Positions 8,100 to 30,280 of a stretch of 30,280 nucleotides of DNA are shown here, piece by piece. The notes beneath the pieces were generated by a model, which made no database searches, was not told where the DNA came from, and was given only the letters and a program-made list of their open reading frames with translations. Source of the stretch: a virus. The stretch is from positions 1 to 30,280 of the IMG/VR virus record IMGVR_UViG_3300020141_001026. One strand, 5' to 3'. Position 1 is the first letter of the stretch. Each line of letters opens with the position of its first letter. A program made the position numbers and the translations under genes.

Positions 8100-8102
8100 C
8101 CA

Positions 8103-8110: not shown

Positions 8111-8116
8111 TTACAT

Positions 8117-8515: not shown

Positions 8516-10404
8516 TGGCAGATATCAGAGTTACAGAATTGGACTTTGCAGATATTAAACAAAATTTAAAGAATTATCTGAAAAGTCAAGATGAATTTTC
8601 TGATTATGACTTTGATGGAGCGGGATTGAATGTGCTGCTGGATGTGTTGGCATACAACACACATTACAATGCGTTATTGGCACACTTACAAGCCAATGAA
8701 ATGTTCATTGATACTGCAATCAAACGGTCATCGGTTGTTTCTATAGCTAAAACACTAGGGTATATTCCTCGGTCTTCAACAGCATCTCGCGCGCGCGTGA
8801 ATTTGGTGGTGACTCCCACCGTTGACACCGCGGCAACATCATTAACATTGATGCCAAGTGTGAAATTCACATCATCAGTGAACAATGTGAATTACACGTT
8901 CAATGTTGCCAATGAGTACACCGCAGTAAAAACCAATGGGGTGTTCACATTCAACAATGTGGATCTTCTTGAAGGAAACAAAGTCACCAACTCATTTATA
9001 GTTGCTGCTGATACTGTGTCTGGACCTTTTGTGATACCAAATGCATTTTTAGATGAAACAACATTTTCCGTGGGTGTTCGTTCATCGACATCAGCTATTG
9101 ACAATGTTACCTACTCACGGGCCACCAGCATCATTGACATTGCAAACACGAGCACCGTGTTCTGGTTGGAAGAAAATCCAGATGGGTTGTTTCAAATTGT
9201 ATTTGGTGATGACATCATTGGAAAGAAATTAGCCTCAGGCAATGTTGTCACCGTGCAATATCTTGCATGCAATGGACCCAACGCCAACGGTGCCAATTCA
9301 TTCACACTGGTGGGAACCATTAACGGCGAGCCATCTGTTGATATCACCATGGTCAACAAAAGTGCTTCAGGTAGTTTTAAAGAATCCATTGATGAGATTC
9401 GGTTCAATGCCCCCAAGTATAATGCCACAAGAAATCGAGCAGTCACATCACAAGATTACAAGTCATTGATTTTGTCGGAATTTTCTCGTGCAAAAAGTGT
9501 TGCTGTGTGGGGCGGCGAGGAAAACGACCCACCCATTTACGGCAAAGTATTCATCACGCTGGATCCGAAAGACGGTGAAGTTATCACGGATGCTGACAAA
9601 GATTTCATCAGTGAATCCATTCTTCGTCCACGAAGTGTGTTGAGTATTCAACATGAATTTGTTGATGCTGACTATTTGTACGCGGGATTTGAAGTAGATA
9701 TCAAATACAACCCACGAAACACAGCATTGACTGCCAATGAAATATCATCTGAAGTGCGACAAGGAATTGAGGCATATTTCAACACCAATTTGAAAACATT
9801 GGACAAAACATTCATATATTCACAATTTGTGGATTACATTAAATTGTTATTACCCAACATCATTGTGGGTGTTCTTGCCAAGATGAAGTTGCAACGGCGT
9901 GTGGAATTTGTAACTAGCACATCAAACAGTAAAACGGTGAGATTTTTAACAAGTATTGTGCCAGAAACTTTACGAAGCACCAACTTTTCTGTGTCATTGA
10001 ATGACAACACATACACCGCCTTTATTAAAGATTTTTCCAACACCGACACCATTGATTTTACTGGCACTGGCACATTGAAATTGATGGATGTGGACACAAA
10101 CAATGTGTTGAACGGATCATTAGGCACCATCAATTACACAACCGGTGTTGTGGTGATTAACAATCTCACAATATTATCTTATTATGGAAATGCAACGGAA
10201 CTTCGATTGACAGTGATACCTCAAGAATTGGGAAAAAACATTGCCCCCTCGGTGATTCCAATAACAGAAACATCATTGTTTGCCACAACTCCGTCGCCAT
10301 CGCGTAATAGTATTATTGATTTGGATGATAGTGAAGCTGACACCACCTCTAATTTATCGCCAGGATTGATTGTTACAGTTTCACCATATATTTCCAATAA
10401 CTAA
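8515..10404 (+). CDS. gp6: Baseplate wedge protein gp6 (Baseplate_J family)
   Basis: 629 residues (T4 gp6 is 660). The start carries the conserved gp6 pattern: ELDFADIKQNLKNYLKSQ, then FDGAGLNVLLDVLAYNTHYNA and a long run IDTAIKRSSVVSIAKTLGYIPRS. A FNAPKYNATRNRAVTSQDY segment (about residue 300) followed by KSVAVWGGEENDPP is the typical J-protein core. The region after about 480 is Thr/Asn-rich and less conserved. In T4 gp6 dimers form the continuous inner ring of the baseplate and drive its hexagon-to-star change. The gene starts on the last base of the gp25 stop and its own stop overlaps the next start (TAATG), so the wedge genes appear to be translated as a coupled series. Confidence 0.92.
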   Translation: MADIRVTELDFADIKQNLKNYLKSQDEFSDYDFDGAGLNVLLDVLAYNTHYNALLAHLQANEMFIDTAIKRSSVVSIAKTLGYIPRSSTASRARVNLVVTPTVDTAATSLTLMPSVKFTSSVNNVNYTFNVANEYTAVKTNGVFTFNNVDLLEGNKVTNSFIVAADTVSGPFVIPNAFLDETTFSVGVRSSTSAIDNVTYSRATSIIDIANTSTVFWLEENPDGLFQIVFGDDIIGKKLASGNVVTVQYLACNGPNANGANSFTLVGTINGEPSVDITMVNKSASGSFKESIDEIRFNAPKYNATRNRAVTSQDYKSLILSEFSRAKSVAVWGGEENDPPIYGKVFITLDPKDGEVITDADKDFISESILRPRSVLSIQHEFVDADYLYAGFEVDIKYNPRNTALTANEISSEVRQGIEAYFNTNLKTLDKTFIYSQFVDYIKLLLPNIIVGVLAKMKLQRRVEFVTSTSNSKTVRFLTSIVPETLRSTNFSVSLNDNTYTAFIKDFSNTDTIDFTGTGTLKLMDVDTNNVLNGSLGTINYTTGVVVINNLTILSYYGNATELRLTVIPQELGKNIAPSVIPITETSLFATTPSPSRNSIIDLDDSEADTTSNLSPGLIVTVSPYISNN

Positions 10405-12179
10405 TGTCAACATCTTTCAAGAATAAACTGTTCTACTTTATTTCCGGACAGTTACCGGAATATATTGTTGCCGAGTACCCGCAGTTTGTTCAATTTTTAA
10501 CTAGTTATTATAAATTTCTAGAAACATCAGAGGAAGTTCATGATGTGTTATTGAACAATGCATCATGGAAAGATATTGATAACACATTGGATCTGTTTCT
10601 GCCTGAATTCAAGAAACAATATGCAAGTGATATACCTGATACCGCATTATTGAATATTCGCCGGTTGATTAAATACATCAGTGAATATTATGAAGCCAAG
10701 GGATCAGAAAACGCAGCAGAATTGTTTTTTCGATTCATGTACAATGAAAAATCATCGGTAGTGTATCCTGGTGATTACACCTTGCGGGCATCTGATGGTA
10801 AATGGTCCAGAAAAAAGATCATTAAAATTGATACCGTGGCGTTCCCCTCGGAAAATATTTTTGAACTTACGGGAAAACAAATTTCTTTTAAGTACATGGA
10901 ATTCATTCCAGGAGAAGGTAGTGTCCTGCGGAATATTCAAACATCATGCTTCAATGTGGTGGGACAAATTGAACCGAACATTTATCAGCTTGAAGTTGAT
11001 ATCAATCCCGGGTATGTGTTTCCTGATGTCATAACACCGGTTACCAATGTAGACATCAATAATGATGGTGTGCCTGAAACCATTCAAAGTCTTGGTACAT
11101 ATGATACACATGTGTATTTGGTATTCAATAACAACATTTACGGATCCATTTCCAAGCAAATTGTAGATGTGGTGTCCATTGATGTTGGTGGTTCCAACTT
11201 CCGAGTTGATGATTCCTATTTGATAGGAGAATCAGGCATTGAACAAGCATATTTTGCGGAAGTGTATGTGTCAGATGCCACCCCGTATGTGTTTGAAACA
11301 TTCAATAATAATGCAGTTATCAGAATCCAGGAGGTTACGCCGCGAGTTCAATTACCTTCACCATATGCATCAGATGTGGAGCTGTATTTTGCTTCTGATT
11401 ATGTGGGTGAAGGATTCCAACGCCGCGGCGCGAACATCACTGAAATTCAAATTGTCAGCACCGGACAAAAATTTGCAGCAAGAAAAGAAGATAATTTAAG
11501 TGATGTTGGATATTTTGCCGGTGACTACGCTGTTAATCCTGACAATTATGCAACAGATGTTCAATTGCTGGAACCCGCCGACACGTTCACACTGGATCTA
11601 TCTCCGCGGTATCCGAGAAATCTCACGGGAACAACAGCAACAATTACATTTAGAACTGGGTTAATTCGCCATGCCGAAGGAATATATAAAGATTCTTCAG
11701 GGTTCTTGTCTGATATCAATCGGTTACAAGACAACTACTACTACCAGCCATATTCCTATGTAATTCGGTCACAACAACCATTCAGTACATGGAAAAATGT
11801 ATACACCCAGAGCAATCATCCTGCAGGATTCAAAGTATTCTCGGAATTGCAATTCATAGACACCATTCCATCCACCATCACCGTTGCTGATAATTTCAAA
11901 CTGTTTGAGTTCATCCTTGATGACATTATTGTACTTGATGATAGTTTTGCAAAACATGTGTATAAATCGGTGTCTGACACAGCAGTGATGAATGATAGCA
12001 TTGTAAAACATGTGCAACCTGTGTTGATTGATGGTATTACCACAATTGATAACATCAATTTTACAATTAATCAAAATCTTTCAGATGGTATCACAACATC
12101 TGATTCCATCAATATAAATATTGAAACAAGTGTGAATGAATCATTGGTGTTTACCGATTCAGTAACATCACAGTTATAA
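10404..12179 (+). CDS. Large virion protein at the gp7 position, probable baseplate wedge component
   Basis: 591 residues. The N-terminal 130 residues are helical and match a pattern I know from other aquatic T4-like phages: LPEYIVAEYPQFVQFLTSYYKFL, then DTALLNIRRLIKYISEYYEAKG, SENAAELFFRFMYNE, and a YTLRASDGKWS stretch. These are usually annotated as virion structural or wedge proteins. Gene order (gp25, gp6, this, then gp8) places it where T4 has gp7 (1032 residues), but I see no clear gp7 sequence match. Residues about 484-588 hold six imperfect repeats of about 18 residues. The gene starts in the gp6 stop (TAATG). No ribosome site is visible, so coupling to gp6 is likely. Confidence 0.75.
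   Translation: MSTSFKNKLFYFISGQLPEYIVAEYPQFVQFLTSYYKFLETSEEVHDVLLNNASWKDIDNTLDLFLPEFKKQYASDIPDTALLNIRRLIKYISEYYEAKGSENAAELFFRFMYNEKSSVVYPGDYTLRASDGKWSRKKIIKIDTVAFPSENIFELTGKQISFKYMEFIPGEGSVLRNIQTSCFNVVGQIEPNIYQLEVDINPGYVFPDVITPVTNVDINNDGVPETIQSLGTYDTHVYLVFNNNIYGSISKQIVDVVSIDVGGSNFRVDDSYLIGESGIEQAYFAEVYVSDATPYVFETFNNNAVIRIQEVTPRVQLPSPYASDVELYFASDYVGEGFQRRGANITEIQIVSTGQKFAARKEDNLSDVGYFAGDYAVNPDNYATDVQLLEPADTFTLDLSPRYPRNLTGTTATITFRTGLIRHAEGIYKDSSGFLSDINRLQDNYYYQPYSYVIRSQQPFSTWKNVYTQSNHPAGFKVFSELQFIDTIPSTITVADNFKLFEFILDDIIVLDDSFAKHVYKSVSDTAVMNDSIVKHVQPVLIDGITTIDNINFTINQNLSDGITTSDSININIETSVNESLVFTDSVTSQL
11853..12167 (+). repeat. Six imperfect 18-residue coding repeats in the gp7-position protein
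   Basis: The C-terminal repeats follow a pattern close to xSDGITTxDSIxxxIxxx. Clear examples are ILDDIIVLDDSFAKHVYKS, LIDGITTIDNINFTINQN and LSDGITTSDSININIETS. The last unit is cut short before the stop. Asp in the middle of each unit and alternating hydrophobic residues suggest a beta-solenoid or stacked-strand rod. Confidence 0.8.
12113..12120 (+). promoter_or_regulatory. T4-type late promoter inside the end of the gp7-position gene
   Basis: Perfect TATAAATA within the last coding repeat, 118 bases before the ATG at 12238. Transcription from about 12126 would give a leader of about 110 bases to the small virion gene and then gp8. A second imperfect copy (TATAAAGA) lies at 12175-12182. Confidence 0.5.
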
Positions 12180-12237
12180 AGAGTATATCGCTAAACCATA
12201 CGTTGGAACAATTAACACATTGTAAACAGAGGACACC

Positions 12238-12696
12238 ATGCAAGACTTTTTAGCAGCAAAGGGTAAATTACGTATCGTCGTTACTGACGAACACGGCAAT
12301 GTCAAAGAAGATCGGGAAGAAACCAATTTAGTGGTGAACGTTGGGAAAGCATTCACAACATCAAGAATGATTGGAACAGCTTCCACCGTTATGAGTCACA
12401 TGGAAGTGGGTACTTCCTCCACGGCGGCAGCAGCCGGACAGACCGCGTTGGTTGCACTGGTGGCGGCATCTCGCACTGCCTTAACATCATCCACACAATC
12501 CACCGTGACAACAACCAGTGATTCGGTGCAATATGTGTGTACATTTGGAGCGGGCGTGGGTACTGGTGCACTTACTGAAGCTGGGATTTTCAATGCAGCA
12601 TCAGCGGGTGATATGTTGTGCCGCACGGTGTTCTCAGTAGTAAACAAAGGCGCAAGTGACGTTATGACTGTTACTTGGACCGTCACACTTTCATAA
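12238..12696 (+). CDS. Small conserved phage virion protein
   Basis: 152 residues. The pattern is a common phage structural family that I recognise by sequence but cannot name: a short N-terminal strand pair (GKLRIVVTDEHGNVKEDREE), TNLVVNVGKAF, a central HMEVGTSSTAAAAGQTAL segment, and a C-terminal GALTEAGIFNAASAGDMLCRTVFSVV stretch ending in VTWTVTLS. Relatives often lie in tail or tail-fibre clusters of unrelated phages. It has no membrane segment or signal peptide. A good ribosome site (AGAGGA) is present at 12228-12233. It sits between the gp7-position gene and gp8, where T4 has no extra gene, so it may be an added surface or fibre-joining subunit. Its precise role is not known to me. Confidence 0.75.
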   Translation: MQDFLAAKGKLRIVVTDEHGNVKEDREETNLVVNVGKAFTTSRMIGTASTVMSHMEVGTSSTAAAAGQTALVALVAASRTALTSSTQSTVTTTSDSVQYVCTFGAGVGTGALTEAGIFNAASAGDMLCRTVFSVVNKGASDVMTVTWTVTLS

Positions 12697-12705
12697 TTAT
12701 ATACC

Positions 12706-14520
12706 ATGCCAGCACTACTACCAATTCGGTTTCGAACTGAATTAGCTCGTCAGTTTCACCGAACCATTACAAACACCACCAACGTTTTGTCAGAGGATAG
12801 AAACACCCTTACTCCTCTGGACACGGTGTTGTTTGAGTATACTGCATCTGCAAGTCAAATAACTTTCACAGGGGTTGATGATAATGCAAAAACATTATCC
12901 TACACACCTGGACGCATTGAAGTATATGTGAATGGAGGAAAAATTTCATCTGGAAATTATTCTGCATTAAATGGTACTAGTGTTGTGTTTTCTTCACCAT
13001 TGGCTCTTAATGATGTGGTAACTATCATCAAAATGAATATTTTGGTGTATCCAAATCCTTCGGATTATTATCATGTGTTTTTAGGGAGAACCACCCCATG
13101 GTATAATAATGTTGTGTCAACTCCCCAAGACACACGGAGCGAAGATTCTGAAACAAAAAGAAATATCATTGCTGTGAAAAAAGTACAACCCAGTGATACC
13201 GCTCTACTCATTCCAAGAATCAACTGGACAACCGACACCGTGTATTCAAGTTATCTTGACGATGAAAATTTTTCAAGCAATGAATTCTATGTGATGAACA
13301 CCAGTTACAGAATTTACAAATGCATCTACAGCCCAGGCACGCCTTCTGTGGTGCAACCCACACAAACAACTGCAGGCCCATTCAATCTCAGTGATGGGTA
13401 TTATTGGCAGTTGATGTATGAGGTGCCGGCAGCTGAACGTATTAGATTTTTAACTGATGATTTTATTCCAGTAAGATTCTATGCCACATCTACAACGTTT
13501 GATCATAATGGCATTGTTGATGAAATTATCCTGGGAACAGAACGGGGAAGTGGCTATGTAACACCTCCCACGGTGTTAATTTTAGGAGATGGACAAGGAG
13601 CCACCGCCACAGCATCATTGTCAGGAGGTGAAATATCTTCTGTGACCGTTACAAATGCAGGACAAGGATACACATTTGCAGTAGTGCAATTTATAGGAGG
13701 TGGTGGTTCAGGTGCTGTTGCTGAAGCATCTCTGCGGTCATCCGACCTGCCCATCACGGTAAATCAAGATGTGGCTTCTTATGCAATTTCAGCGGGTGGT
13801 GGCATCAATTTCATTGAGGTGGTGAATGGCGGCACTGGATATCTTGCATCCACAATTGAAATTGAAATTAACGGAGATGGCACCGGCGCCGAGGCAGCAG
13901 CTTCAGTTGTGAATGGTGTAGTTACCTCTGTTACTATTACTGACCGTGGAAAAGGATACACCTATGCGGAACTTGTGGTAACAGGTGCTGGTGCAAATGC
14001 ATCATTGCGCGCCGTGATTGAACCTCAAGGCGGTCATGGATCCAACCTCCCACAAGAACTATTCGCACGAGTTGTTGCCATTTCTGTCAATATCGAGGAT
14101 ATGCTATCAGACTTTTTCCTTGATAATGATTTTCGACAGATCGGGCTTGTGAAAAATATTAAAAATTTCAATGAAACTGAAATCTTCTCATCATCAACAG
14201 GAAACGCATGTTATGTTGTAGAAGTGCCATCAGTGAATCAATACAGTGTTGACGATGTGGTGTTAACTAACACCGGCGGAGAATATGTGGTTGTGAACAA
14301 AACGGCAACCACAATATTTCTTCTAGCTATAATTGATTCCATCTCAGCATCAAGTGTTCTAAATAATGAGACAACCGGCGTGAGTGCATTGAGCATCACA
14401 TCAATTGATGTGCCTGAAATATCAACGAAAACCGGCGATATCATTTATGTTCGAAACATTGCTCCAGTCACAAGACAAGTCGGGCAAGTGGAACAAATAA
14501 AACTTTATTTTAGCTTCTAA
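12706..14520 (+). CDS. gp8: Baseplate wedge protein gp8 with two added domains
   Basis: 604 residues, nearly twice T4 gp8 (334). The gp8 core is readable in pieces: an N-terminal helix (RFRTELARQFHRTI), then from about residue 118 DYYHVFLGRTTPW, a NIIAVKKVQPSDTALLIPRINW run, VYSSYLDD, a FYVMNTSYRIYKCIYSPG region, YYWQLMYEVPAAERIRFLTDD, and C-terminal VAISVNIEDMLSDFFLDNDFRQIGLVKNI. Residues about 37-113 hold an inserted beta domain of the kind common in phage fibres (FEYTASASQITFTG, then YTPGRIEVYVNGGKI). Residues about 281-440 hold four Gly-rich units with GxGY turns. In T4 gp8 dimers sit in the peripheral wedge. The start lies nine bases after the previous stop. Confidence 0.88.
   Translation: MPALLPIRFRTELARQFHRTITNTTNVLSEDRNTLTPLDTVLFEYTASASQITFTGVDDNAKTLSYTPGRIEVYVNGGKISSGNYSALNGTSVVFSSPLALNDVVTIIKMNILVYPNPSDYYHVFLGRTTPWYNNVVSTPQDTRSEDSETKRNIIAVKKVQPSDTALLIPRINWTTDTVYSSYLDDENFSSNEFYVMNTSYRIYKCIYSPGTPSVVQPTQTTAGPFNLSDGYYWQLMYEVPAAERIRFLTDDFIPVRFYATSTTFDHNGIVDEIILGTERGSGYVTPPTVLILGDGQGATATASLSGGEISSVTVTNAGQGYTFAVVQFIGGGGSGAVAEASLRSSDLPITVNQDVASYAISAGGGINFIEVVNGGTGYLASTIEIEINGDGTGAEAAASVVNGVVTSVTITDRGKGYTYAELVVTGAGANASLRAVIEPQGGHGSNLPQELFARVVAISVNIEDMLSDFFLDNDFRQIGLVKNIKNFNETEIFSSSTGNACYVVEVPSVNQYSVDDVVLTNTGGEYVVVNKTATTIFLLAIIDSISASSVLNNETTGVSALSITSIDVPEISTKTGDIIYVRNIAPVTRQVGQVEQIKLYFSF
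13546..14025 (+). repeat. Four Gly-rich GxGY coding repeats in gp8
   Basis: The four turns read GSGYVTPP, GQGYTFAV, GTGYLAST and GKGYTYAE, spaced 35-60 residues apart and each followed by alternating hydrophobic strands and a GxGAxAxAS segment. The pattern suits a stacked beta structure on the outer face of the baseplate. Confidence 0.75.
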
Positions 14521-21470: not shown

Positions 21471-21683
21471 ATGGGGTTAATACCTGCAACCGGGTCTGCA
21501 ATTGCGATGGGTAGAGTGGCCAACGCCTATGGGTTGGGTGCTGTTGGCACTGTAGCTGTAGGACTTAACGGTGTCGGTTCAGCAATTACAGCAAAACTAG
21601 GTGCTCAAATTGGTAAATCTGCCGCACAACTAACAAGCCTATCCATTGACTTTGGTGGAAAAACAACGCCGAACACGTACTAG
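21471..21683 (+). CDS. Small Gly/Ala-rich putative virion protein
   Basis: 70 residues, rich in Gly, Ala, Val and Thr (LGAVGTVAVGLNGVGSAITAKLGAQ stretch split over residues 21-45). The N-terminus, GLIPATGSAIAMGRVANAYG, recalls the IPASGAISMSDVNxELG start of small virion proteins common in T4-like phages, but it is shorter and I cannot place it securely. A TAGGAG ribosome site lies 7 bases before the ATG, supporting translation. It follows the S74 fibre after 25 bases and is the last gene before a sigma70-type promoter. The hydrophobic run is interrupted by Gly too often for a confident membrane span, although a weak membrane association cannot be excluded. Confidence 0.6.
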   Translation: MGLIPATGSAIAMGRVANAYGLGAVGTVAVGLNGVGSAITAKLGAQIGKSAAQLTSLSIDFGGKTTPNTY

Positions 21684-21687
21684 CACT

Positions 21688-21716
21688 TGACAATGTAGTG
21701 CATGATGTGTATATTG
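21688..21716 (+). promoter_or_regulatory. Sigma70-type promoter for the glycosyltransferase operon
   Basis: Consensus -35 TTGACA (21688-21693), a 17-base spacer and -10 TATATT (21711-21716, five of six matching). Transcription would start near 21723, about 20 bases before the ATG at 21745, with the GAGGTGAT ribosome site in between. A short inverted repeat (GCACT, nine bases, AGTGC) at 21685-21703 surrounds the -35 box and could be an operator. Confidence 0.7.
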
Positions 21717-21744
21717 ATAATACTATTATAATTTTGAGGTGATT

Positions 21745-22203
21745 ATGGACATTACATTAGAAACATTGCTTGACTCTATCAATGAAACCCCATCGGAATA
21801 CGAAGAAAGGTATGTCCGGTGGGTTTCCATTGGACATGATAGAAAAAAATTAACTGAATTGTTGTATGAATTGAAATTTTTAAAAGAGCAAGAAGATAAA
21901 GATGAAGCACGTATTGGGTTTTTACAATCCTTGCTTCAAGAGCACGATATGTCTCAATTACATTCGTTGCTAATGAATGATGAGACCACCGTTAGATTTG
22001 CTCTTATTGAAAAATATGCTCGCATTGGCGCCATGGAAATGTTGATTGATGGTAAATACACCATTGACACATTGAACACCATCACACAATTTCCATTGGC
22101 GGATTATCAGTTGATTGTGAAACGAATTCAAGAACTAGTAGCATTAATTAGTGATATCACAACTCAAGCATCTAACATGGCGGCTGGAGTTGCTGGGCTA
22201 TGA
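21745..22203 (+). CDS. Helical protein of unknown function, first gene of the glycosyltransferase operon
   Basis: 152 residues from the ATG at 21745; a GTG two codons earlier is in frame, but GAGGTGAT at 21736-21743, a near-perfect Shine-Dalgarno site that covers that GTG, fits the ATG better. The protein is predicted mostly helical: an acidic N-terminal half with LTELLYELKFLKEQEDKDEA and LQSLLQEHDM coils, then a C-terminal half (LIEKYARIGAMEMLIDGKY, then IVKRIQELVALISDITTQ). There are no Cys clusters, membrane spans or enzyme motifs I recognise. It overlaps the next gene by four bases (ATGA), so it is probably translated together with the glycosyltransferase. A partner or scaffold role is possible but unsupported. 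Confidence 0.75.
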   Translation: MDITLETLLDSINETPSEYEERYVRWVSIGHDRKKLTELLYELKFLKEQEDKDEARIGFLQSLLQEHDMSQLHSLLMNDETTVRFALIEKYARIGAMEMLIDGKYTIDTLNTITQFPLADYQLIVKRIQELVALISDITTQASNMAAGVAGL

Positions 22204-22895
22204 GGAAAAATATTTTCGATTCAAGCATTTGGAAAACTCGTCCCACCAAGCTGGCTGTGTTGGTGCCCTGCCGAGATACTGTACACTCGTTATTTGCTGC
22301 GTCTTTAACTGAACTGGTGAAAACATGCGTGATGGGTGGGATTGATACTCATGTGATTTACGACAGTAGCACCATTTTATTGAATCAACGAGAAACCTTA
22401 GCCAACAAAGGTGTTGAGATTAAATCCGACTATTTGCTATGGTTGGATTCTGATATGATGTTTCCCAGCACCACGGCCATGAGATTGATGAGTCATAACA
22501 AAGACATCGTGGCAGCCAATTACATGAAACGAAGTGTGCCCCTTACCACGGTGGCATACACGGAGCGTGGAGATTGGGACAATTGGTTGCCTTTGGAATC
22601 ACAAGAAGATTTGGAAATAGTTGAAGGTATTGGCATGGGGGTGATGTTAATGAAAACCGCCATATTGCAAGATGTGGAACGCCCATTGTTTGCATTTGAA
22701 TACACTGACAACAGTTGGCACGGGGAAGATTTCTACTTTCAACGAAAGTTGCAAGCAGCAGGACATAAAATTCATGTTGATATGAATTTGAGCCGACAAA
22801 TTCGCCACGTGGGAAACTGGGCGTTTGGACCCAGCATTGGAACCAATGATGATCAAATTCAAAAACGTCGAATTAAAAAGGTGTCGAAACAATGA
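22200..22895 (+). CDS. GT-A fold glycosyltransferase
   Basis: 231 residues. A Rossmann-like start (KLAVLVPCRDTVHS) is followed by SDYLLWLDSDMMFPS, in which D83-S-D85 is the DxD metal/nucleotide-sugar motif. Later features are IVAANYMKR (about 103-111), GIGMGVMLMK (143-152), the acceptor-side HGEDFYF (174-180) and KIHVDMNLSRQIRHVG (190-205). These fit family 2-like glycosyltransferases found in phages. It should move a sugar from a nucleotide donor to an unidentified acceptor. No membrane segment is present, so it probably acts in the host cytoplasm. It overlaps both neighbours by four bases (ATGA). The same set of motifs recurs in the last third of the large minus-strand glycosyltransferase (27093-29717), so the two are probably related. 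Confidence 0.82.
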   Translation: MRKNIFDSSIWKTRPTKLAVLVPCRDTVHSLFAASLTELVKTCVMGGIDTHVIYDSSTILLNQRETLANKGVEIKSDYLLWLDSDMMFPSTTAMRLMSHNKDIVAANYMKRSVPLTTVAYTERGDWDNWLPLESQEDLEIVEGIGMGVMLMKTAILQDVERPLFAFEYTDNSWHGEDFYFQRKLQAAGHKIHVDMNLSRQIRHVGNWAFGPSIGTNDDQIQKRRIKKVSKQ

Positions 22896-23995
22896 ATGAC
22901 AACACCACGTGGCTGGTACATAGTGAGTTATTCAATACACATTGGATTGTTGAAACAAAATCATGGGTTAGGCATCTTGGATGGTTTTCTGAATTTCAAG
23001 AATCTGTGAAAGAGTGTTGTGGGTGGGCCCAATATGGAAATCATGAATTGACAACTGTTGATTACGTGAATATCATTGACGCAACAGATGCTGAGAAAAA
23101 GTTATACAAATATCACGAAGGAACCTGGGAACATTTTTCAGGCCCCATATTGTTTGTTGTGAAAAAGAATGCTGAAGAAACGTATATTGCAGGATGGGCG
23201 GGCCCAGCAAAACTCCTCACTAAATTAAAACAACAATCAGATAATCCCTGGGACTGGGATGGCATCAACCTGGTTGAAGTGAATCCTTTTTCCGTTATGG
23301 TGGCATGTTCAAAACCTCAGAATAAACTGCTACCTGTATTTTTTGCATGCAACGGAGAAACAAATGCCGAAGAAAATTGGAAGCATTTGAAAAAAATGTG
23401 TCCTCGCGCTGTAAAACTTGAAAATATTGATGGGCGTAGAAAAATGTTTTTGCTAGCAGCCCATATAGCCAACCAAGAATCTCACTTTTTCTTGGTCACA
23501 GGAAAAAACTTCGTCACTGATAAAACGGTGTTTGACTATGTTCCTGATTACACGGTGCCCACATCTCATATTTTGTTTCAAGCAAAAAACATCAGCAATC
23601 GCTTAGAGTACGGGCACATGGCAATTGGATGCTACAACACAGAAATTGTGTTGTCAACACCTGAAAATTTTGGATTGGATTTCACGGAATATGGTAAAAT
23701 TTATCATGTTCCCAGAACAGTCAGTGAAGCCAATTTTGCAACGTCAGAATATGAAGCATGGCGAACTGCATTTCGGGAATGTGTGAAATTGACATTGAAA
23801 GGCAATGAGATAACGAAAAAATGGTTGTCTCGCTGGACGTCTTTTGCTGAAGGAGAATTCAGCGATTGGGTACTACTAGGTGCTGAACAAGGGCGAGATT
23901 TCGCGCTGGAGAACAAAGATGATGCAGCTGCCTTGAAAAATACTGAAAACTGGACCTGGTTGCAACAGTATTTCACTTCACGTAATGGCGCGTAA
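22892..23995 (+). CDS. Glycosyltransferase-like phage protein, probably lacking DxD
   Basis: 367 residues, soluble. The second half resembles a phage family I know from T4-like genomes: NWKHLKKMCPRAVKLENIDGR, a helix, then SHFFLVTGKNFV, a FDYVPDYTVP segment, the ISNRLEYGHMAIGCY stretch, and the marked AWRTAFRECVKLTLK helix. Relatives usually carry a VDAD-like acidic motif where this protein has VTGK, so the metal-binding DxD of a GT-A enzyme seems to be missing. The first 150 residues, with several Trp (CCGWAQYG, WDWDG), are not recognisable to me. It overlaps the glycosyltransferase upstream by four bases and ends the operon. It may be a regulatory partner or use another mechanism; family recall is from memory. 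Confidence 0.6.
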   Translation: MNDNTTWLVHSELFNTHWIVETKSWVRHLGWFSEFQESVKECCGWAQYGNHELTTVDYVNIIDATDAEKKLYKYHEGTWEHFSGPILFVVKKNAEETYIAGWAGPAKLLTKLKQQSDNPWDWDGINLVEVNPFSVMVACSKPQNKLLPVFFACNGETNAEENWKHLKKMCPRAVKLENIDGRRKMFLLAAHIANQESHFFLVTGKNFVTDKTVFDYVPDYTVPTSHILFQAKNISNRLEYGHMAIGCYNTEIVLSTPENFGLDFTEYGKIYHVPRTVSEANFATSEYEAWRTAFRECVKLTLKGNEITKKWLSRWTSFAEGEFSDWVLLGAEQGRDFALENKDDAAALKNTENWTWLQQYFTSRNGA

Positions 23996-24014
23996 TATTC
24001 TGATGTAATGGTTT

Positions 24015-24022
24015 TATAAATA
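24015..24022 (+). promoter_or_regulatory. T4-type late promoter before the Ig-like virion gene
   Basis: Perfect TATAAATA in the 53-base gap after the glycosyltransferase operon. Transcription from about 24029 gives a 20-base leader with a GGA-containing ribosome site before ATG 24049. It separates late fibre genes from the preceding sigma70-type operon. Confidence 0.75.
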
Positions 24023-24048
24023 TACATAACTACTAGTATAGGATACTT

Positions 24049-24381
24049 ATGGCACCAGTTAAACATCTAGTGATTGACCAAGGCACAACATTCAGCTTTT
24101 CAATCACCGTCACAGATATTCAAGGAAATCCTATAAATTTAACGGGATACACGTTAACTTCCCAGCTGCGCAAAAGTTACAACAGCAACACATACACAGC
24201 ATTTGTTGTAACTGCTCCAACTCCGTTAACTGGAGAAATGACGTTATCGTTGACAGCAACCACAACATCATTGCTTAAATATGGGCGGTATGTGTATGAT
24301 GTTGAGATTCGTAGTCCTTCCAATGAAGTCACTCGCGTCTTGGAAGGCATCATCACTGTTAATCCTGAGGTGACAAAATAA
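24049..24381 (+). CDS. Ig-like small virion protein
   Basis: 110 residues with the pattern of a single beta-sandwich: LVIDQGTTFSFSITVTDIQG, NLTGYTLTSQLRKSY, GEMTLSLTATTTSLLKYGRY, then VYDVEIRSPSNEVTRVLEGIITVNPE. Near-identical layouts occur in T4-like phages of aquatic bacteria, usually labelled virion structural protein, and resemble the N-terminal domain of baseplate upper proteins. It likely decorates or connects a fibre. The stop overlaps the next start by one base (TAATG), with GAGGTGA ahead of that start at 24367-24373. A perfect late promoter and the ribosome site upstream suggest late, high-level expression. No catalytic residues are evident. Confidence 0.8.
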   Translation: MAPVKHLVIDQGTTFSFSITVTDIQGNPINLTGYTLTSQLRKSYNSNTYTAFVVTAPTPLTGEMTLSLTATTTSLLKYGRYVYDVEIRSPSNEVTRVLEGIITVNPEVTK

Positions 24382-24635
24382 TGCCTGTAACAGTTCAAAT
24401 TGGAACATCAGCGACATCATTGGTTACAAAAGTTAACACACCCCCTGCGATCAACACTCGGTTAAAAAAAATTGATTTTTCGTTAGTGAAATTGGAAGAA
24501 TTGACAAATGTTGATGAAAACGGTTTACAAGATGGCTATACTTTGATATATGATGCAGGGACACAACAGTGGACCACACAAGAATTGACTGATAACAATA
24601 TCAATATCGGTAATATCGACGGCGGCACGTACTAA
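24381..24635 (+). CDS. Small fibre-associated protein ending in IDGGTY
   Basis: 84 residues. The middle reads LKKIDFSLVKLEELTNVDENGLQDGYTLIYDAGTQQWTTQEL, a segment typical of phage tail fibres in which a short helix is followed by a GDVLVYD-like strand and a Trp. The last residues (IDGGTY) match exactly the last six of the large fibre at 24666, with three silent base differences. It begins inside the previous stop codon and is preceded by a strong GAGGTGA ribosome site. It may be a fibre cap, joint or chaperone-like subunit that shares a docking end with the large fibre. I cannot name it further. Confidence 0.75.
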   Translation: MPVTVQIGTSATSLVTKVNTPPAINTRLKKIDFSLVKLEELTNVDENGLQDGYTLIYDAGTQQWTTQELTDNNINIGNIDGGTY

Positions 24636-24641
24636 ACATCT

Positions 24642-24649
24642 TATAAATC
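24642..24649 (+). promoter_or_regulatory. Possible late promoter (TATAAATC) before the repeat fibre
   Basis: One base off TATAAATA, in the 30-base gap before the ATG at 24666. The predicted start (about 24655) falls at the ribosome site CGGAG, so the leader would be very short. Read-through from 24015 could serve the gene instead. Confidence 0.35.
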
Positions 24650-24665
24650 GTACACGGAGACAGGC

Positions 24666-26165
24666 ATGGCAACAGTAATTCAGATTAAGCGATCTTCAGG
24701 TTCCGCCGCACCAACAACTAGCGCATTGGTTGAAGGTGAATTGGCTTATAGTGAAGATAGAAGTAATTCAGGTGCAGGCGCAGTATTGTATATTGAATCA
24801 ATTGGTAGCGATGGAACAACACAAGTCATTGATAAAATTGGTGGTAAGTATTACACCAATACCGTTGATGAGCTGTTAACACCGGCGGCAGCAGGAACAG
24901 CAGGTGCCCTTGAACTGTTTGAAGCTACTGCAAATGGAACTAATAAAATTTTATTAACTGCTCCTGCAACATTGGCAGCAGATGTAACATACACACTACC
25001 TGCAACACCCACGAACAATTACTTTTTGCAAACAAACGCAACAGGTACGTTGAGTTGGCAACAAGTTGTTAGTAGCTTAACTATCAGTGACAACCAAGGA
25101 ACACCAAACACTGACACGTTGAATACAGGGGAAACATTAACATTTGCTGGTACAGCAAATCAAATTAGTACCACCGTTTCAAATAATAATGTTGCCTTTG
25201 CATTAACCAATGATGTCACGTTGGTGGGCGACTTGACAGTTGGTGGCAACGACATCAAAGCATCTGATGGTGTCACTGCGTTAACATTGACAGCAGCCTC
25301 AGGCAATGTCACAGTGGCAGGTGATTTGAAAGTTGGGGGCAATGATATTCTAGCATCTGATGGTGTCACAGCGTTAACATTGCTTGCATCATCAGGTGAT
25401 GTCACGGTGGCAGGTGATTTGAAAGTTAATGGCAATGATATTAAATCATCATCGGCAACGGCGATCACGTTGTCAGGCACCAATGTCACGGTGGCTGGTG
25501 ACTTGACAGTGGGCGGCAATGATATTCTGGCATCTGATGGTGCCACCGCATTAACATTGACAGCATCAACAGGTGATGTCACAGTGGCAGGTGATTTGAA
25601 AATCATGGGTAATGATATTAAATCATCATCCGGATCAACTGCCATCACGTTGTCTGGTACCAGTGTCACGGTGGCGGGTGACCTAACGGTTAACGGCTCA
25701 ACAACTGTTATCAATTCAACAACGGTTACCATTGATGACTCGTTGTTGAAATTGGCGGATGGCAACGTTGGCAATAGCATTGACACAGGTGTGTATGCTG
25801 AATATGTGGAATCATCAACAGCTAAGTATGCAGGTTTCTTCCGCGATGCGTCTGATAACAACATCTTTAAGTTTTTCAAGAGCGCAGAAACAGAACCCAG
25901 CACAACCGTTAACACCGCAGGAACAGGATACGCAGTTGGTACCATTCTTGCCAACTTAACAGGCGGCACCGTTTCATCTCTGGCATCAGCTATCGGTGTT
26001 GCAGATGGCGGTACTGGCGCAGCAACATTCACTTCAAACGGAGTGTTGTATGGCAATGGCACAGGTGCCATTCAAGCAACAGCCGCCGGTACTGACACGT
26101 ACATTTTAAAATCAAACGCAGGTGTACCTGTTTGGTCAAATGTCATTGACGGTGGCACATACTAA
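24666..26165 (+). CDS. Repeat-rich tail fibre
   Basis: 499 residues. The N-terminal IQIKRSSGSAAPTTSALVEGELAYSED is a widespread phage adhesin start. A second block (LFEATANGTNKILLTAPATLA through NYFLQTNATGTLSWQQV) is common in shafts. Residues 184-367 contain six tandem units of about 28-34 residues built on VTVAGDLxVxGNDI. The last unit (GDLTVNGSTTVINSTTVTIDD) is close to a module in the S74 fibre, so the two fibres share parts. The end has GVADGGTGAATFTSNGVLYGN and finishes IDGGTY. There is no S74 or other visible chaperone domain, so folding may need a separate helper; a 57-residue coiled-coil gene follows 17 bases downstream. It is likely a trimeric receptor-contacting or shaft protein. 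Confidence 0.87.
   Translation: MATVIQIKRSSGSAAPTTSALVEGELAYSEDRSNSGAGAVLYIESIGSDGTTQVIDKIGGKYYTNTVDELLTPAAAGTAGALELFEATANGTNKILLTAPATLAADVTYTLPATPTNNYFLQTNATGTLSWQQVVSSLTISDNQGTPNTDTLNTGETLTFAGTANQISTTVSNNNVAFALTNDVTLVGDLTVGGNDIKASDGVTALTLTAASGNVTVAGDLKVGGNDILASDGVTALTLLASSGDVTVAGDLKVNGNDIKSSSATAITLSGTNVTVAGDLTVGGNDILASDGATALTLTASTGDVTVAGDLKIMGNDIKSSSGSTAITLSGTSVTVAGDLTVNGSTTVINSTTVTIDDSLLKLADGNVGNSIDTGVYAEYVESSTAKYAGFFRDASDNNIFKFFKSAETEPSTTVNTAGTGYAVGTILANLTGGTVSSLASAIGVADGGTGAATFTSNGVLYGNGTGAIQATAAGTDTYILKSNAGVPVWSNVIDGGTY
25215..25766 (+). repeat. Six tandem coding repeats in the fibre shaft
   Basis: Each unit begins VTVAGDL (the first VTLVGDL) and continues VGGNDI, then ASDGVTALTL or SSSxTAITL. 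Long units (about 31 residues) and short units (about 28-29) alternate after the first two, suggesting duplication of a two-unit block. DNA of adjacent units is also similar, so recent expansion or recombination is likely. The pattern suits a beta-helical trimer shaft. Confidence 0.88.
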
Positions 26166-26182
26166 CAACACATGGACACAAT

Positions 26183-26356
26183 ATGGATCAAACAAAATTT
26201 GTGAATGCCTATATACAGAAACTCAGTGATACAGCAAAAAATTTAATGTTGGAGAAAATTGTGTTTGAAACACAAATCACTCTGATGACAGAAGAAATTT
26301 CTGAACTGAAGAAACACATTGCGGAGTTGGAAGAAAAATTGACATTTCAAAACTAA
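26183..26356 (+). CDS. Short coiled-coil protein after the repeat fibre
   Basis: 57 residues starting MDQTKFVNAYIQKLSD and ending in a strong coiled coil (ISELKKHIAELEEKL). An ATG 11 bases upstream in another frame stops after 10 codons and is rejected. The ribosome site is weak, so it may depend on ribosomes from the fibre gene, whose stop is 17 bases before. Its stop codon lies in the left arm of the terminator. Size, coil and position recall fibre-assembly helpers such as T4 gp57A and parallel the 63-residue coiled-coil gene beside the S74 fibre; no sequence identity to gp57A is claimed. Confidence 0.65.
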   Translation: MDQTKFVNAYIQKLSDTAKNLMLEKIVFETQITLMTEEISELKKHIAELEEKLTFQN

Positions 26357-26378
26357 AAAGGGCCTTCGGGCCCTTTTT
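26355..26378. terminator. Two-way intrinsic terminator between convergent operons
   Basis: A perfect 10-bp inverted repeat (AAAAAGGGCC and its complement) with a TTCG tetraloop at 26365-26368. Because the arms begin with five A and end with five T, it can act on both strands. The arms overlap the stop codons of the coiled-coil gene (plus) and the FkbM gene (minus). Confidence 0.95.
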
Positions 26379-27096
26379 ATTTAACTGCCGCAATTAACTG
26401 GGGACAACTTTTGTGTACTGCAATATAATCAGGTCCCTTGAAATCTTCATCCCATAATTGATAATTTTTAAATTGCACACCCTGAGGAGTAAGTTTACCT
26501 ATCTCAAATCCTAATGGGGTCAACAATTCATAAAAATCCACAAGAAGTTTTTTAGTTAAAATGCTAATGTATCCATATTCAAATTGAATGATTTTTATTT
26601 GTTCTTGTTGCAACATGGAGTGAAACCCTTCAAGAACTCGATATTCATGTCCCTCAGTATCTATTTTCAAAAAATCAATCTGTGAGATGTTGTGCATTTG
26701 ACAATATGTGTCACCGGGCACCCCTAGGCCTGTTAGATAAAAACTATTGTCATGCGCCAGGTTCAACACACTGGTTGACACCCGATCATTATCTGCCACC
26801 ACTTTCAGATCCACCGTGGCGAGTTTATCAGAAAGCCCAAAACTGTTGGGAAACATGTTGGCATCTAACATGTTGTTGGAAATCAATTTACTGAACGTTT
26901 GGGGCACAATCTCAAATAAATGAATGTCGCTGACAGGATGATACCTACGAGTCATTCTGCTCCATTCACCTATATTACACCCAACATCAAAAATGGTGCG
27001 CATGTTGTGTTGCCGCAATTTTTCATGGAGCTGTGTTTCACCATGAATGGCAAATTCATGTTCAGCATACGATTGATTGTATTCAGGAAATGTCAT
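26377..27096 (-). CDS. FkbM-family SAM-dependent methyltransferase
   Basis: 239 residues. The class I methyltransferase motif I is FDVGCNIG (residues 36-43), followed by an acidic strand end (IHLFEIVP, 58-65) for SAM ribose binding. The FkbM signature FLKIDTEGHEYRVLEG spans residues 142-157, and IIQFEYG follows. Members methylate sugars or other hydroxyls in surface glycans and natural products. The start overlaps the stop of the triple glycosyltransferase by four bases (ATGA), so both are made together and the methyl group probably caps the glycan made by that enzyme. No membrane segment is visible. It ends in the shared terminator. Confidence 0.88.
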   Translation of the reverse strand: MTFPEYNQSYAEHEFAIHGETQLHEKLRQHNMRTIFDVGCNIGEWSRMTRRYHPVSDIHLFEIVPQTFSKLISNNMLDANMFPNSFGLSDKLATVDLKVVADNDRVSTSVLNLAHDNSFYLTGLGVPGDTYCQMHNISQIDFLKIDTEGHEYRVLEGFHSMLQQEQIKIIQFEYGYISILTKKLLVDFYELLTPLGFEIGKLTPQGVQFKNYQLWDEDFKGPDYIAVHKSCPQLIAAVK

Positions 27097-29717
27097 ACTG
27101 TGGGCCGGTAAATTGTTGACCCAATATGATTACACACCACCGTTGAATCCACGTGAATTTTCACACCTTGGTCTTTGGCTTTTTTACAAAAGTAGATATC
27201 TTCCGAGATGGTGCCGGCATGGTCCACGGCTGAGGTGTATACAAATTGGGGATATTGAATTTTCTTGATTACGTCAGATTTTATCAACACACAACCAAAT
27301 CCACAGGCATCAATTTCATGCAGCCCATATGGGGTGATGTCCTGCATGGATACATTGCTCACACCACCGTGTGAATTGTGTTTATAAATTTCTAGAATTT
27401 CTGTGTTGGGTTTTCGTTGAATATACACACCCGACACCATATCAACATTGTGATTGAAAAATTTTGTTAATGTGTTTGCAGGAAGCACGATATCACTGTC
27501 AACTGAAAACAGATAATCAAAATTCACTGCCCAGTGAGCAATCAAGTTGCGTATCTGATCAATTTGATACCCGAAAAAATACTGAAATGATACATCAACA
27601 TTCGGCGGGATATCAAGATCATAAATGCTTTTAAATGTCTCGGGTTCAATGTATTTTGCAGTAGGAATAGCAATTAATACCGTTTTCTTTTTCATAGTCA
27701 ATACCTTGTTTGCTGTGGCGGATTGTTCATCACCATGAACTTTATAATCATTCAACGGATTTTTATCATTGTACTGGTACACAATTTTCTGCAAGGCATG
27801 CACTTTATCAGGATTTGCTTGTTCAATCACATTGTAGAAAATGGATGTGTCTCCTCCTGCGCGATACCATGCACCTGTGTCATCTTGAAATGCTGAATCA
27901 GACACGGTGGTCATCAAGTGTTGCCGAAATGTTCTGAGATGTGTGTACGGCATGTTCCACGGAAACACATGTTCTCGGTATGCCTTACGGCGTTTTACAT
28001 CATTGGGATAGGGTTGGGCAATTAATGGAATATCATCAATTTGTGACCAACATGATCCATACGTGAATTCAGTTGATCCATCATATAGATTGTTGTAATA
28101 ATGAAAAATTGTGTTGTCGGGCATTAGACAATCATCACCGTCCAACATCATCACAATGTCATGCTCTGTGCAATGTTCACGAATGGCGGTGATTTGATTG
28201 CACACGGCGCCCATGTTCTCCGTGTTCTTCATCAACAGAAATTTTTGTTGTAGATGTTCTGGCAATGCAGCAATAACATCGTGCGCCACTTGATAACTGT
28301 TGTCTGTGGAACAATCATCAATTAAAATGTGTTGATAATTTTCATACTCTTGTGTGGCAACAGATGCAATGCAATCGGTCACATACTGTTCAGCATTAAA
28401 GAACGGTGAGATTATTTTTATGTGTTGCTGAGGATATGTGGGTGAAATGCTCCATTCTTCCATGTTGCTATATCGGCGATGAAACACTTCATGCAGTTTT
28501 TCATTCAATTTCATCACGGCACGATATTCATTCACAGGCAGAAATTTGTGCAGCTTCTTGAAGAAATGTTGTTTCCATTGTAATGCAACACCATCCCATC
28601 CTGCCACATCATGCACAATGTTGCAATAATGCATTTTCTGATAATGCAAATAGGTGTTGTGATGCGCCTGTAGCACAACGTCCACAAATTTCTTGCATTG
28701 TTGTTGCAAACTGATATCAGGAAACAACCCATTGGGTTCAATCGCGTAATCAATTTTATAACATGCTAAATCAATTGCTGTTTCTTCCAATGCACCAAAT
28801 CTATTGGTGATGATGGGTGTGTTGTATAACAACGATTCTAAACTGGAAATGCCAAATGTTTCTGGAAAGGCACATGGAAAAATCATGAAGGATGCATGCG
28901 CCAGATGTTCGGCAATATTCTTCTGAGGAATGATGCCCGTGAACTCCACATCCAATTGTGTTAAATCATTCCGCTGTGACAATTCACGCACAGTATTCTC
29001 TTGCGCGTCAGGTTCAGCATCATCACGAAATCGGTAATACCCCCCAATGATTTTCAACTTGGCAGCGGGAATATGTTTTTTCACTTCAGGCCAAATATGA
29101 TTCACTAATGGAATCATGCCCTTGGTGGCAGATGCATTGTAAATGAAAAGATTTGGATCTTTTTTACTGATATCAATTTCGTGTATATGCTTCTTTGCAC
29201 CATTTCTGGTGATGAACGTTTTGTTTTTCAACACTTCAAAATTACGCCGCTTGCCGTGATTGGCGTTCAACACATACGATGTGTGAAAATCTGACAATGT
29301 GAAAATTTCATCAACATGCCCGTGAACAAGCAAATCTTCAACAAATTCATCTCCCTGACAAAACGTATCATGCAGCCATAACACCTTTAATTTAGCACTG
29401 GTTTTCAAAGAAGAAAATTTCGTGTTTTCAGGCAGATAGGGAACAACTGTGCGTGACACAATCATGATGTCACATGCCGCATCTTCAGGAAAACTTGCCA
29501 GGTCAACATATTCAACCCCGTCATACACGCCGGGAGCTGATCGACTGTCACGGCAGTTGTTGTAGACTGTGACAGCGAACCCGTGATTGTTCAATTCAGC
29601 TGCCATGTAAATCACAGCAGATTCTGAACCTCCCAACCCGTATTTTTCAATGGTGGTGGCGTCATATGTTAATCCAATAACATCAACAATAGCAATTTTC
29701 AGTTTTTCCATACCCAT
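27093..29717 (-). CDS. Three-domain glycosyltransferase fusion (GT4, GT2, GT-A)
   Basis: 874 residues. Domain 1 (about 1-390) is GT-B, family 4-like: GLGGSESAV near residue 27, a NASATKGM segment near 194, and an EX7E motif in PETFGISSLES (about 284-294). Domain 2 (about 430-670) is a GT2 enzyme with IKIISPFFNAEQYV, IDDCSTDNS, and MLDGDDCL (about 521-528) carrying the acidic donor motif. Domain 3 (about 676-874) is a second GT-A domain with SVDSDIVLP (about 737), CGFGCVLIK and SEDIYF, resembling the 22200-22895 enzyme. The protein could add two or three sugars in sequence. A second ATG at 29711 is better spaced from AGGGTGA and may be the true start. It leads the operon with FkbM. Confidence 0.88.
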   Translation of the reverse strand: MGMEKLKIAIVDVIGLTYDATTIEKYGLGGSESAVIYMAAELNNHGFAVTVYNNCRDSRSAPGVYDGVEYVDLASFPEDAACDIMIVSRTVVPYLPENTKFSSLKTSAKLKVLWLHDTFCQGDEFVEDLLVHGHVDEIFTLSDFHTSYVLNANHGKRRNFEVLKNKTFITRNGAKKHIHEIDISKKDPNLFIYNASATKGMIPLVNHIWPEVKKHIPAAKLKIIGGYYRFRDDAEPDAQENTVRELSQRNDLTQLDVEFTGIIPQKNIAEHLAHASFMIFPCAFPETFGISSLESLLYNTPIITNRFGALEETAIDLACYKIDYAIEPNGLFPDISLQQQCKKFVDVVLQAHHNTYLHYQKMHYCNIVHDVAGWDGVALQWKQHFFKKLHKFLPVNEYRAVMKLNEKLHEVFHRRYSNMEEWSISPTYPQQHIKIISPFFNAEQYVTDCIASVATQEYENYQHILIDDCSTDNSYQVAHDVIAALPEHLQQKFLLMKNTENMGAVCNQITAIREHCTEHDIVMMLDGDDCLMPDNTIFHYYNNLYDGSTEFTYGSCWSQIDDIPLIAQPYPNDVKRRKAYREHVFPWNMPYTHLRTFRQHLMTTVSDSAFQDDTGAWYRAGGDTSIFYNVIEQANPDKVHALQKIVYQYNDKNPLNDYKVHGDEQSATANKVLTMKKKTVLIAIPTAKYIEPETFKSIYDLDIPPNVDVSFQYFFGYQIDQIRNLIAHWAVNFDYLFSVDSDIVLPANTLTKFFNHNVDMVSGVYIQRKPNTEILEIYKHNSHGGVSNVSMQDITPYGLHEIDACGFGCVLIKSDVIKKIQYPQFVYTSAVDHAGTISEDIYFCKKAKDQGVKIHVDSTVVCNHIGSTIYRPTV

Positions 29718-29731
29718 TCACCCTGCCAAGT

Positions 29732-29739
29732 TATAAATA
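29732..29739 (+). promoter_or_regulatory. T4-type late promoter for the collagen-like fibre
   Basis: Perfect TATAAATA, 72 bases before the start codon at 29804. The predicted transcription start (about 29746) is at the left end of an 18-bp palindrome, so the message would begin with it. Confidence 0.65.
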
Positions 29740-29744
29740 TACTT

Positions 29745-29762
29745 ATGTAATATATATTACAT
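29745..29762. promoter_or_regulatory. Perfect 18-bp palindrome between divergent promoters
   Basis: ATGTAATATATATTACAT reads the same on both strands. It covers the -10 box of the minus-strand sigma70-type promoter and the expected start point of the + strand late promoter. It could be a dimer-binding operator, or a weak hairpin at the 5' end of the late message. Confidence 0.55.
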
Positions 29763-29777
29763 GACATACTATGTCAA
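29749..29777 (-). promoter_or_regulatory. Sigma70-type promoter for the triple glycosyltransferase operon
   Basis: On the minus strand: -35 TTGACA (29777-29772), a 17-base spacer, and -10 TATATT (29754-29749). This is the same pair of hexamers with the same spacing as the promoter at 21688. Transcription from about 29742 gives a 25-base leader to the ATG at 29717. Confidence 0.75.
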
Positions 29778-29803
29778 CCGCTACATAGCGTTTGAGGAGC
29801 CAT

Positions 29804-30280
29804 ATGGCTAATATAATCAAGACAAAACGTTCCGCAGTTCCTGGAAAAATTCCACTGACTGTTGATTTGGATCTAGGCGAATTTGCCATCAACACCCATG
29901 ATGGTAAAATCTTCATTAAAAAAGATGTATCTGGCACAGAAACCATTGTTGAAATTGGTGCTAGTGCTGTTGGATACACAGGATCCAAAGGTGACACTGG
30001 GTTCACAGGATCCAAAGGTGATCTAGGCTACACAGGAAGTCAAGGTGTTGGCTTCACAGGATCACAAGGAAATACTGGTTATATTGGTTCAAAAGGTGAT
30101 GTGGGATTCACCGGCTCCACAGGCGCAATAGGCTACACAGGCAGTCAAGGTGATGTAGGTTTCACTGGATCCAAGGGTGATGTTGGATACACGGGTTCAC
30201 TGGGATACACTGGATCACAAGGAAATATTGGTTTCACTGGAAGTCAGGGCGCCACCGGCTTTGTGGGATCCAAGGGTGAT
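29804..30280 (+). CDS. Collagen-like tail fibre (3' end outside window)
   Basis: 159 codons are visible; the gene runs off the right edge. The N-terminus (IIKTKRSAVPGKIP, then LDLGEFAINTHDGKIFIKKD) is the fibre start shared in pattern with the 24666 fibre. From about residue 56 the sequence is Gly-X-Y, built of nine-residue blocks such as GYTGSKGDT and GFTGSQGNT, with one short interruption (SQGVGFTG). Such collagen-like stretches form trimeric rods in phage fibres. A GAGGAG ribosome site lies just before the ATG, and a perfect late promoter is 72 bases upstream. The C-terminal receptor-binding part is not in the window. Aromatic Tyr/Phe at X positions with Thr at Y is regular throughout. Confidence 0.9.
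   Translation, partial: MANIIKTKRSAVPGKIPLTVDLDLGEFAINTHDGKIFIKKDVSGTETIVEIGASAVGYTGSKGDTGFTGSKGDLGYTGSQGVGFTGSQGNTGYIGSKGDVGFTGSTGAIGYTGSQGDVGFTGSKGDVGYTGSLGYTGSQGNIGFTGSQGATGFVGSKGD
29969..30280 (+). repeat. Gly-X-Y (collagen-like) repeats, nine-residue period
   Basis: About 104 codons of Gly-X-Y with a near 27-base DNA period (GGNTTCACAGGATCC-like blocks). Repeated DNA of this type changes length easily by recombination. The array continues past the window edge. Confidence 0.92.

Follow-up and report, generated by a model that had tools for sequence, protein, structure and literature searches.

Early-type promoters precede two glycosyltransferase operons within the tail fibre cluster of an uncultured T4-like phage

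The DNA analysed here (the window) is the entire 30,280-bp IMG/VR virus record IMGVR_UViG_3300020141_001026. Family scans identified genes for a tail tube protein, gp2- and gp4-like proteins, gp48, gp53, gp5, gp25, gp6, a gp8-like protein, and an S74 fibre, and the window is a tail and baseplate cluster of an uncultured T4-like phage. Within it lie two glycosyltransferase operons, one on each strand, and each is preceded by an early-type promoter (E1 and E2). By gp6, the nearest cultured relative is the Pelagibacter phage HTVC008M (38 percent identity). The close relatives of the window phage are metagenomic contigs, and a near-identity DNA search of the phages collection with positions 5670-14520 gave no matching record.

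The plus-strand operon begins with W152 (21745..22203), which encodes a predicted all-helical protein with no match in the phages collection, no convincing PHROG, and no structural counterpart in the PDB at E <= 0.001. The second gene, GT1 (22200..22895, +), encodes a glycosyltransferase of phrog_1574 and Pfam Anp1; it is assigned to the GT-A type by an Anp1 score above the cut-off and by the invariant D83 and D85 of its D-S-D motif. Bacterial homologs of GT1 were limited to two weak loci among 32 candidate stretches and gave no hint of the host. The third gene, W367 (22892..23995, +), had no PHROG below 0.02 and no credible PDB sequence match. However, residues 141 to 282, approximately, of its structure model (predicted local distance difference test, pLDDT, 82; predicted template modelling score, pTM, 0.55) resemble folds of the GT-A and nucleotidyltransferase types (best Z of 11.0, root-mean-square deviation of 3.5, 135 residues aligned). 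For the C-terminal half of W367, the GT-A-like prediction is thus one of fold only, and nucleotidyltransferases reach the same level. Upstream of E1 and directly behind a fibre gene lies W70 (21471..21683, +), encoding a small glycine-rich protein without a Pfam or PHROG match. Across the W70 family (the window protein and its homologs in loci L194 to L273), the start, MGxIPATGSxI, and the C-terminus, FGGxTTPNTY, are conserved.

The minus-strand operon consists of GT874 (27093..29717), an 874-amino-acid (aa) protein with GT1-type, GT2-type, and C-terminal phrog_1574 domains, and a gene for an FkbM-type methyltransferase (26377..27096). The last domain of GT874 is in the same phrog_1574 family as GT1, and the middle domain has a weak match to a GtrB-like PHROG. 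This middle part diverges faster than its flanks. The two genes, which are separate in the window (26377-29717), form one 1118-aa fusion in relatives G012/G013 (L355:1501-4857), where a further FkbM-like gene comes next. Among known relatives, GT874 homologs of 72, 67, and 54 percent identity were found, and a search of viral_contigs by peptide patterns confirmed none. A bidirectional intrinsic terminator (26354..26379) lies between the convergent transcription units and closes both; in L083, the 72 percent relative, changes on both sides of one pair keep the pairing. Divergent from GT874 is the start of a collagen-like (Gly-X-Y) open reading frame (ORF; 29804..30280, +), which is cut by the window end and whose homolog in L083 is 1019 aa long.

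Both operons are preceded by near-consensus -35 and -10 hexamers, spaced within 16 to 18 nt and located shortly upstream of a gene, as in sigma70-type promoters. E1 (21687..21715, +) consists of TTGACA at 21687-21692, a 17-nt spacer, and TATATT at 21710-21715; it is 30 nt upstream of the W152 ATG at 21745 and has a predicted start near 21722. E2 (29749..29777, -) has TTGACA at 29777-29772, the same spacer length, and TATATT at 29754-29749; it is 32 nt upstream of the GT874 start at 29717, with a predicted start near 29742. A first-pass annotation of the sequence had reported identical-hexamer promoters before the two operons, one per strand, and a pattern search confirms this: TTGACA-N17-TATATT has one exact forward and one exact reverse match in the whole record, and the reversed pattern has none. 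The sites themselves were placed correctly, apart from a plus-strand beginning that was off by one (TTGACA is at 21687). Exact class sites (TTGACA-N17-TATAAT, -TATATT, or -TATACT) number two in the window, against a mean of 0.0 over 10 dinucleotide shuffles. Loose sigma70-like matches in the window were at chance level (51 versus 49.9 and 46 versus 40.9), and therefore only the strict form of the site is informative; the loose scans were set aside.

The structural operons instead have TATAAATA, as had also been claimed. This sequence occurs six times in the window, every time on the plus strand, and four of the occurrences are clear intergenic boxes: at 2401 before the gp48-like gene, at 8103 before gp25, at 24015..24022 before a gene for L-shaped tail fibre assembly (conserved in L083), and at 29732..29739 before the collagen-like ORF. 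The matches at 12113 and 20219 are within reading frames and are doubtful as promoters. The box at 29732-29739, which the first-pass annotation overlooked, shares its intergene with E2. According to two reports, marine T4-like phages have sigma70-like early promoters and NATAAATA or TATAAATA late promoters (PMC2984593 and PMC9004378).

To the annotation, E-type promoters belonged to the sugar operons only. This holds for the window, a fragment whose sole replication gene is one for a DNA-end protector, but not for relatives, in which the class is general. Four large relatives were fetched and their genes were called and named via HTVC008M proteins, giving 602 genes (68 replication-type, 119 structural, 5 "other," and 410 unclassed). 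The classes are our own lists of HTVC008M product names, with CobS, peptidase, Hsp20, and PhoH counted as replication-type, and the T4 gene numbers are partly our labels. An E-type site (up to 1 mismatch, a 16- to 18-nt spacer, and up to 130 nt upstream of a gene) precedes 20 of the 68 replication-type genes, including those for gp43, gp45, gp61 primase, uvsY, and CobS, versus 0 of the 119 structural genes (Fisher test, P = 2e-10). The reverse is seen for TATAAATA, which precedes 35 of the 119 structural genes, including those for gp13, gp18, gp22, gp23, gp25, and gp48, versus 2 of the 68 replication-type genes (P = 3e-6). The TATAAATA boxes thus stand before structural genes, as T4-like late promoters do, both in the window and in the relatives.

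A scan of 11 relatives for TTGACA-N17-TATAAT, allowing one mismatch, gave 22 sites on one strand of G001 (177.9 kb) and 0 on the other, mostly with TATATT or TATACT as the -10 hexamer. Exact class sites in G001 number 19, versus a shuffle mean of 0.0. Among 40 exact class sites not deep within a gene, the -10 hexamer is TATATT in 32 and the spacer is 17 nt in 36. TATATT is therefore the class consensus, and so the identical hexamers of E1 and E2 are simply those of the class. Judged by sequence, E1 and E2 are genuine members of a recurrent early-type promoter class of this lineage. Palindromes in the spacers were considered as operators and dropped (10 of 53 sites versus 6.2 in shuffles). G001 encodes a homolog of the late sigma factor gp55, 53 percent identical to that of HTVC008M, and the window fragment itself has no gp55 gene. 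MotA and AsiA had no matches in the four relatives, but the controls were silent too, so that absence cannot be claimed.

Gene maps of 14 GT1-containing relatives have, with few exceptions, the order fibre gene, W70, E site, W152, GT1, and W367, followed in most of them by a late box and then the L-shaped-fibre gene or gp13. W70, the early-type promoter, and W152-GT1-W367 are thus a recurrent module in many T4-like contigs. W70 occurs together with W152 in 75 of 80 GT1 loci, and the gap between them is 36 to 82 nt in 73 of the 74 loci where both could be read. Three loci have W70 near GT1 without W152, L194 has W152 but no W70 match, and L262 begins within W152, so that W70 is unreadable there. 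Among loci collected by other genes, W70 was found in 14 of 80 retrieved through the 499-aa fibre-like protein and in 10 of 79 retrieved through the S74 fibre, always with W152, and neither W70 nor W152 was found in any of 79 gp6 loci. The 499-aa fibre-like ORF of the window contains a repeated segment (25481-25690) that cross-matches in blastn.

Conservation of E1 was assessed as an E site with up to 1 mismatch in the 80 nt before W152, in 75 of the 80 GT1 loci (L253, L270, L271, and L273 have no W152, and L262 begins within it). Where GT1 identity is at least 60 percent, the site is kept in 41 of 42 loci. After reduction to 21 distinct upstream sequences, it is present in 20 and exact in 13, versus a shuffle average of 0.18, and TATAAATA is found in none of the 21 within the same 80 nt. 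In the distant loci L236 to L267, the regions upstream of W152 homologs have TTTACA-N17-TATATT without a clear Shine-Dalgarno sequence, or other promoter styles, which vary as if tracking the host; some look similar to promoters of the Bacteroidota.

For the GT874 operon, the 72 percent relative L083/L129 has an identical E2 and is counted with the window as one lineage, and alignment shows that most of the intergene has diverged in the lineages of 67 and 54 percent identity. All three lineages nonetheless have an exact TTGACA-N17-TATATT at -59/-60 together with an opposite-strand TATAAATA, and L355 and L356 have spacers that differ from that of the window between the same hexamers. The opposing box is 9 nt past the -10 hexamer in the window and 7 nt past it in L354/L355; in L356/L090 it overlaps the -10 hexamer, and a second box is at 26 nt. 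Over all loci, 10 of 463 distinct E sites have an opposite TATAAATA within 45 nt, and the three GT874 lineages are among those 10; this comparison (3/3 versus 7/460) is post hoc.

A late box occupies positions -13 to -6 relative to the start, according to one report (PMC1524935), and on that basis the predicted starts are at 29742 (-) and 29745 (+), 3 bp apart. Since each transcript crosses the promoter of the other, simultaneous use of E2 and the late box looks impossible. The 46 bp from 29732 to 29777 may therefore form a promoter-overlap toggle. The sigma70 holoenzyme and the gp55 late holoenzyme would exclude each other, which would restrict the GT operon to the early phase and the collagen-like fibre to the late one. 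We consider such a toggle plausible but put it forward tentatively. The arrangement is kept in three lineages despite the diverged intergene, and in this reading it would let a supply of the modifying enzymes build up ahead of the fibre. The predicted 5' untranslated region of the late collagen-like transcript (29746-29810, +) can form four small hairpins, one of which covers the start codon; its folding is not significant (z of -1.8), and CGCTATGTAGCG is retained in L355.

These observations suggest an explanation that we hold to be probable as a whole. The host's own sigma70 holoenzyme, unmodified, would transcribe from E1 and E2, and gp55-type late TATAAATA boxes would serve the neighbouring tail genes, giving two glycosyltransferase operons early expression within a late tail-fibre cluster. 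The enzymes would thus be made before the fibres, and late firing of the collagen-like promoter should turn off the GT874 operon. Their likeliest substrates would be fibre proteins of the virion (W70 or the fibre; the collagen-like protein), modified as these appear, and host-surface modification is the main alternative. Early host-polymerase expression, which had been proposed in the first-pass annotation, is well supported for both operons by the gene-class comparison and by the conserved positions of the sites, as an argument from sequence. Early expression alone does not choose the enzyme target, however. Virion proteins are about an even prospect as the target and the host surface is a less likely one; we lean slightly towards the virion because of the W70-W152 linkage and because the enzymes have no clear membrane segment.

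Several findings weigh against this explanation. One GT1 locus, L195, has no E site and carries GATAAATA instead, and among the 33 loci with GT1 identity under 60 percent, only five of the 13 distinct upstream sequences match, each with one mismatch, and no exact site was found. The stretch from 29715 to 29855 is unchanged between the window and L083, although the flanking blast matches are 86 to 88 percent identical; this counts in favour of the explanation, but a recent recombination event could also account for so perfectly conserved an E2 intergene. The relative G001 has two N-acetylglucosamine (GlcNAc)-transferase-family genes and a carbamoyltransferase gene in a cluster behind a TATAAATA late box, and therefore early expression of sugar enzymes does not hold throughout the lineage. 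Homologs of the HtrL-like protein of this cluster are found behind a late box in G001 and within an E operon in L194. Targets, moreover, are assigned from gene neighbourhood only, and late read-through from the fibre gene may add to transcription from E1.

This last point leads to the strongest competing possibility, dual-phase expression, in which late transcription would reach the operon from upstream and E1 would provide an additional, early start. The stretch from W70 to E1 showed no intrinsic terminator, so GT1 may be read late too. Early and late promoters side by side have been described as a middle mode (PMC2984593), and the region upstream of the G001 sugar cluster has a degenerate E-like match in tandem with its late box. 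However, no TATAAATA lies within 80 nt upstream of the GT1 operon in the 21 distinct sequences, and dual-phase expression cannot apply to E2, whose operon runs along the opposite strand and ends at the terminator. We regard it as a possibility to be taken seriously, though not as the favoured one.

The annotation had gone on to argue that the products are early and so act on the host, and an early-expressed set of enzymes could indeed remodel the host surface, blocking superinfection or re-adsorption. The promoter type, the weak GtrB-like match of the middle domain of GT874, and the proposal, in a report on pelagimyophages, that glycosyltransferases of the host-recognition cluster alter the host O-chain as a guard against coinfection (PMC7029224) are compatible with this. 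Against it, none of the five enzymes has a clear membrane segment (highest 19-residue hydropathy mean of 1.47, a rough criterion), and general family scans turned up neither a GtrA- or GtrC-like partner nor a flippase, although no dedicated search was made. GT1 is also seldom found apart from W70, which lies behind the fibre gene, and the GlcNAc-transferase cluster of G001 is behind a late box. The step from early expression to a host target is therefore not supported, and remodelling of the host surface seems to us unlikely, if still the main alternative for the target.

Glycosylation of phage DNA would also explain early expression, as the T4 DNA glucosyltransferases are pre-late enzymes. 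The operons are nonetheless located among fibre genes and linked to them, and PF00303 (thymidylate synthase/dCMP hydroxymethylase) was found in none of the four relatives, which are possibly incomplete contigs (the control was positive in 9 of 14 genomes); this function is very improbable. Finally, the idea that the sites arose by chance in AT-rich intergenes, or as a side effect of hairpin repeats in the late collagen-like leader, scarcely merits consideration, in spite of the inverted repeats that overlap E2, the predicted leader hairpins, and the chance-level loose matches, since exact sites are absent from shuffles and are kept before homologous operons despite diverged intergenes, the hexamers persist around the other spacers of L355 and L356, and spacer repeats are not clearly enriched.

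Apart from these operons, the window contains an element, TTGACTACTACTTGACA...TTACTATGTC(C/T)GG, at 1874-1915 (+) between the gp2- and gp4-like genes. Close copies occur in L077/L011/L017, in L024, and, between gp3 and gp23, in G001 (L171).

Phage glycosyltransferases that are expressed outside the late programme are known from the gtrABC O-antigen conversion cassettes. Those of the window appear to differ, as the enzymes have no clear membrane segment and family scans found no flippase. The two-class logic and the similar late box are shared with S-PM2, Syn9, RB49, and the Methylophilales phage Melnitz, as these are described in three reports (PMC2984593, PMC1524935, and PMC9004378), and early promoters before novel genes are known from T4-like phages (PMC1524935). 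In contrast to the promoters described there, the early -10 hexamer here is mostly TATATT, the spacer of 17 nt is near-invariant, and early-type sites lie inside the fibre cluster before sugar-enzyme operons, one of them interlocked with an opposing late box. For RB49 and S-PM2, overlapping early and late promoters have been proposed as a middle mode (PMC2984593). The side-by-side elements are a likeness to the window, but those of RB49 and S-PM2 drive the same gene, whereas the E2 pair faces opposite genes and appears mutually exclusive. Pelagimyophages are likewise T4-like aquatic phages with glycosyltransferases near tail fibre genes; in the report that covers them, GT8 is the most represented family and prediction of middle and late promoters failed (PMC7029224). 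Here, the enzyme is an Anp1/phrog_1574-like GT1 with a conserved promoter and W152, W367, and W70 as partners. We found no description in the literature of an interlocked opposing early/late pair or of this module, in searches that were mostly not worded for either.

What began as a reading of two sites thus becomes, for an uncultured lineage of phages, a promoter class that is conserved and clearly associated with certain genes. The interlocked early/late promoter pair, kept over a large divergence, is its most novel element. The arrangement also raises a testable question for the biology of these phages: why would fibre-linked enzymes be made before the fibres, and is their target the virion or the host?

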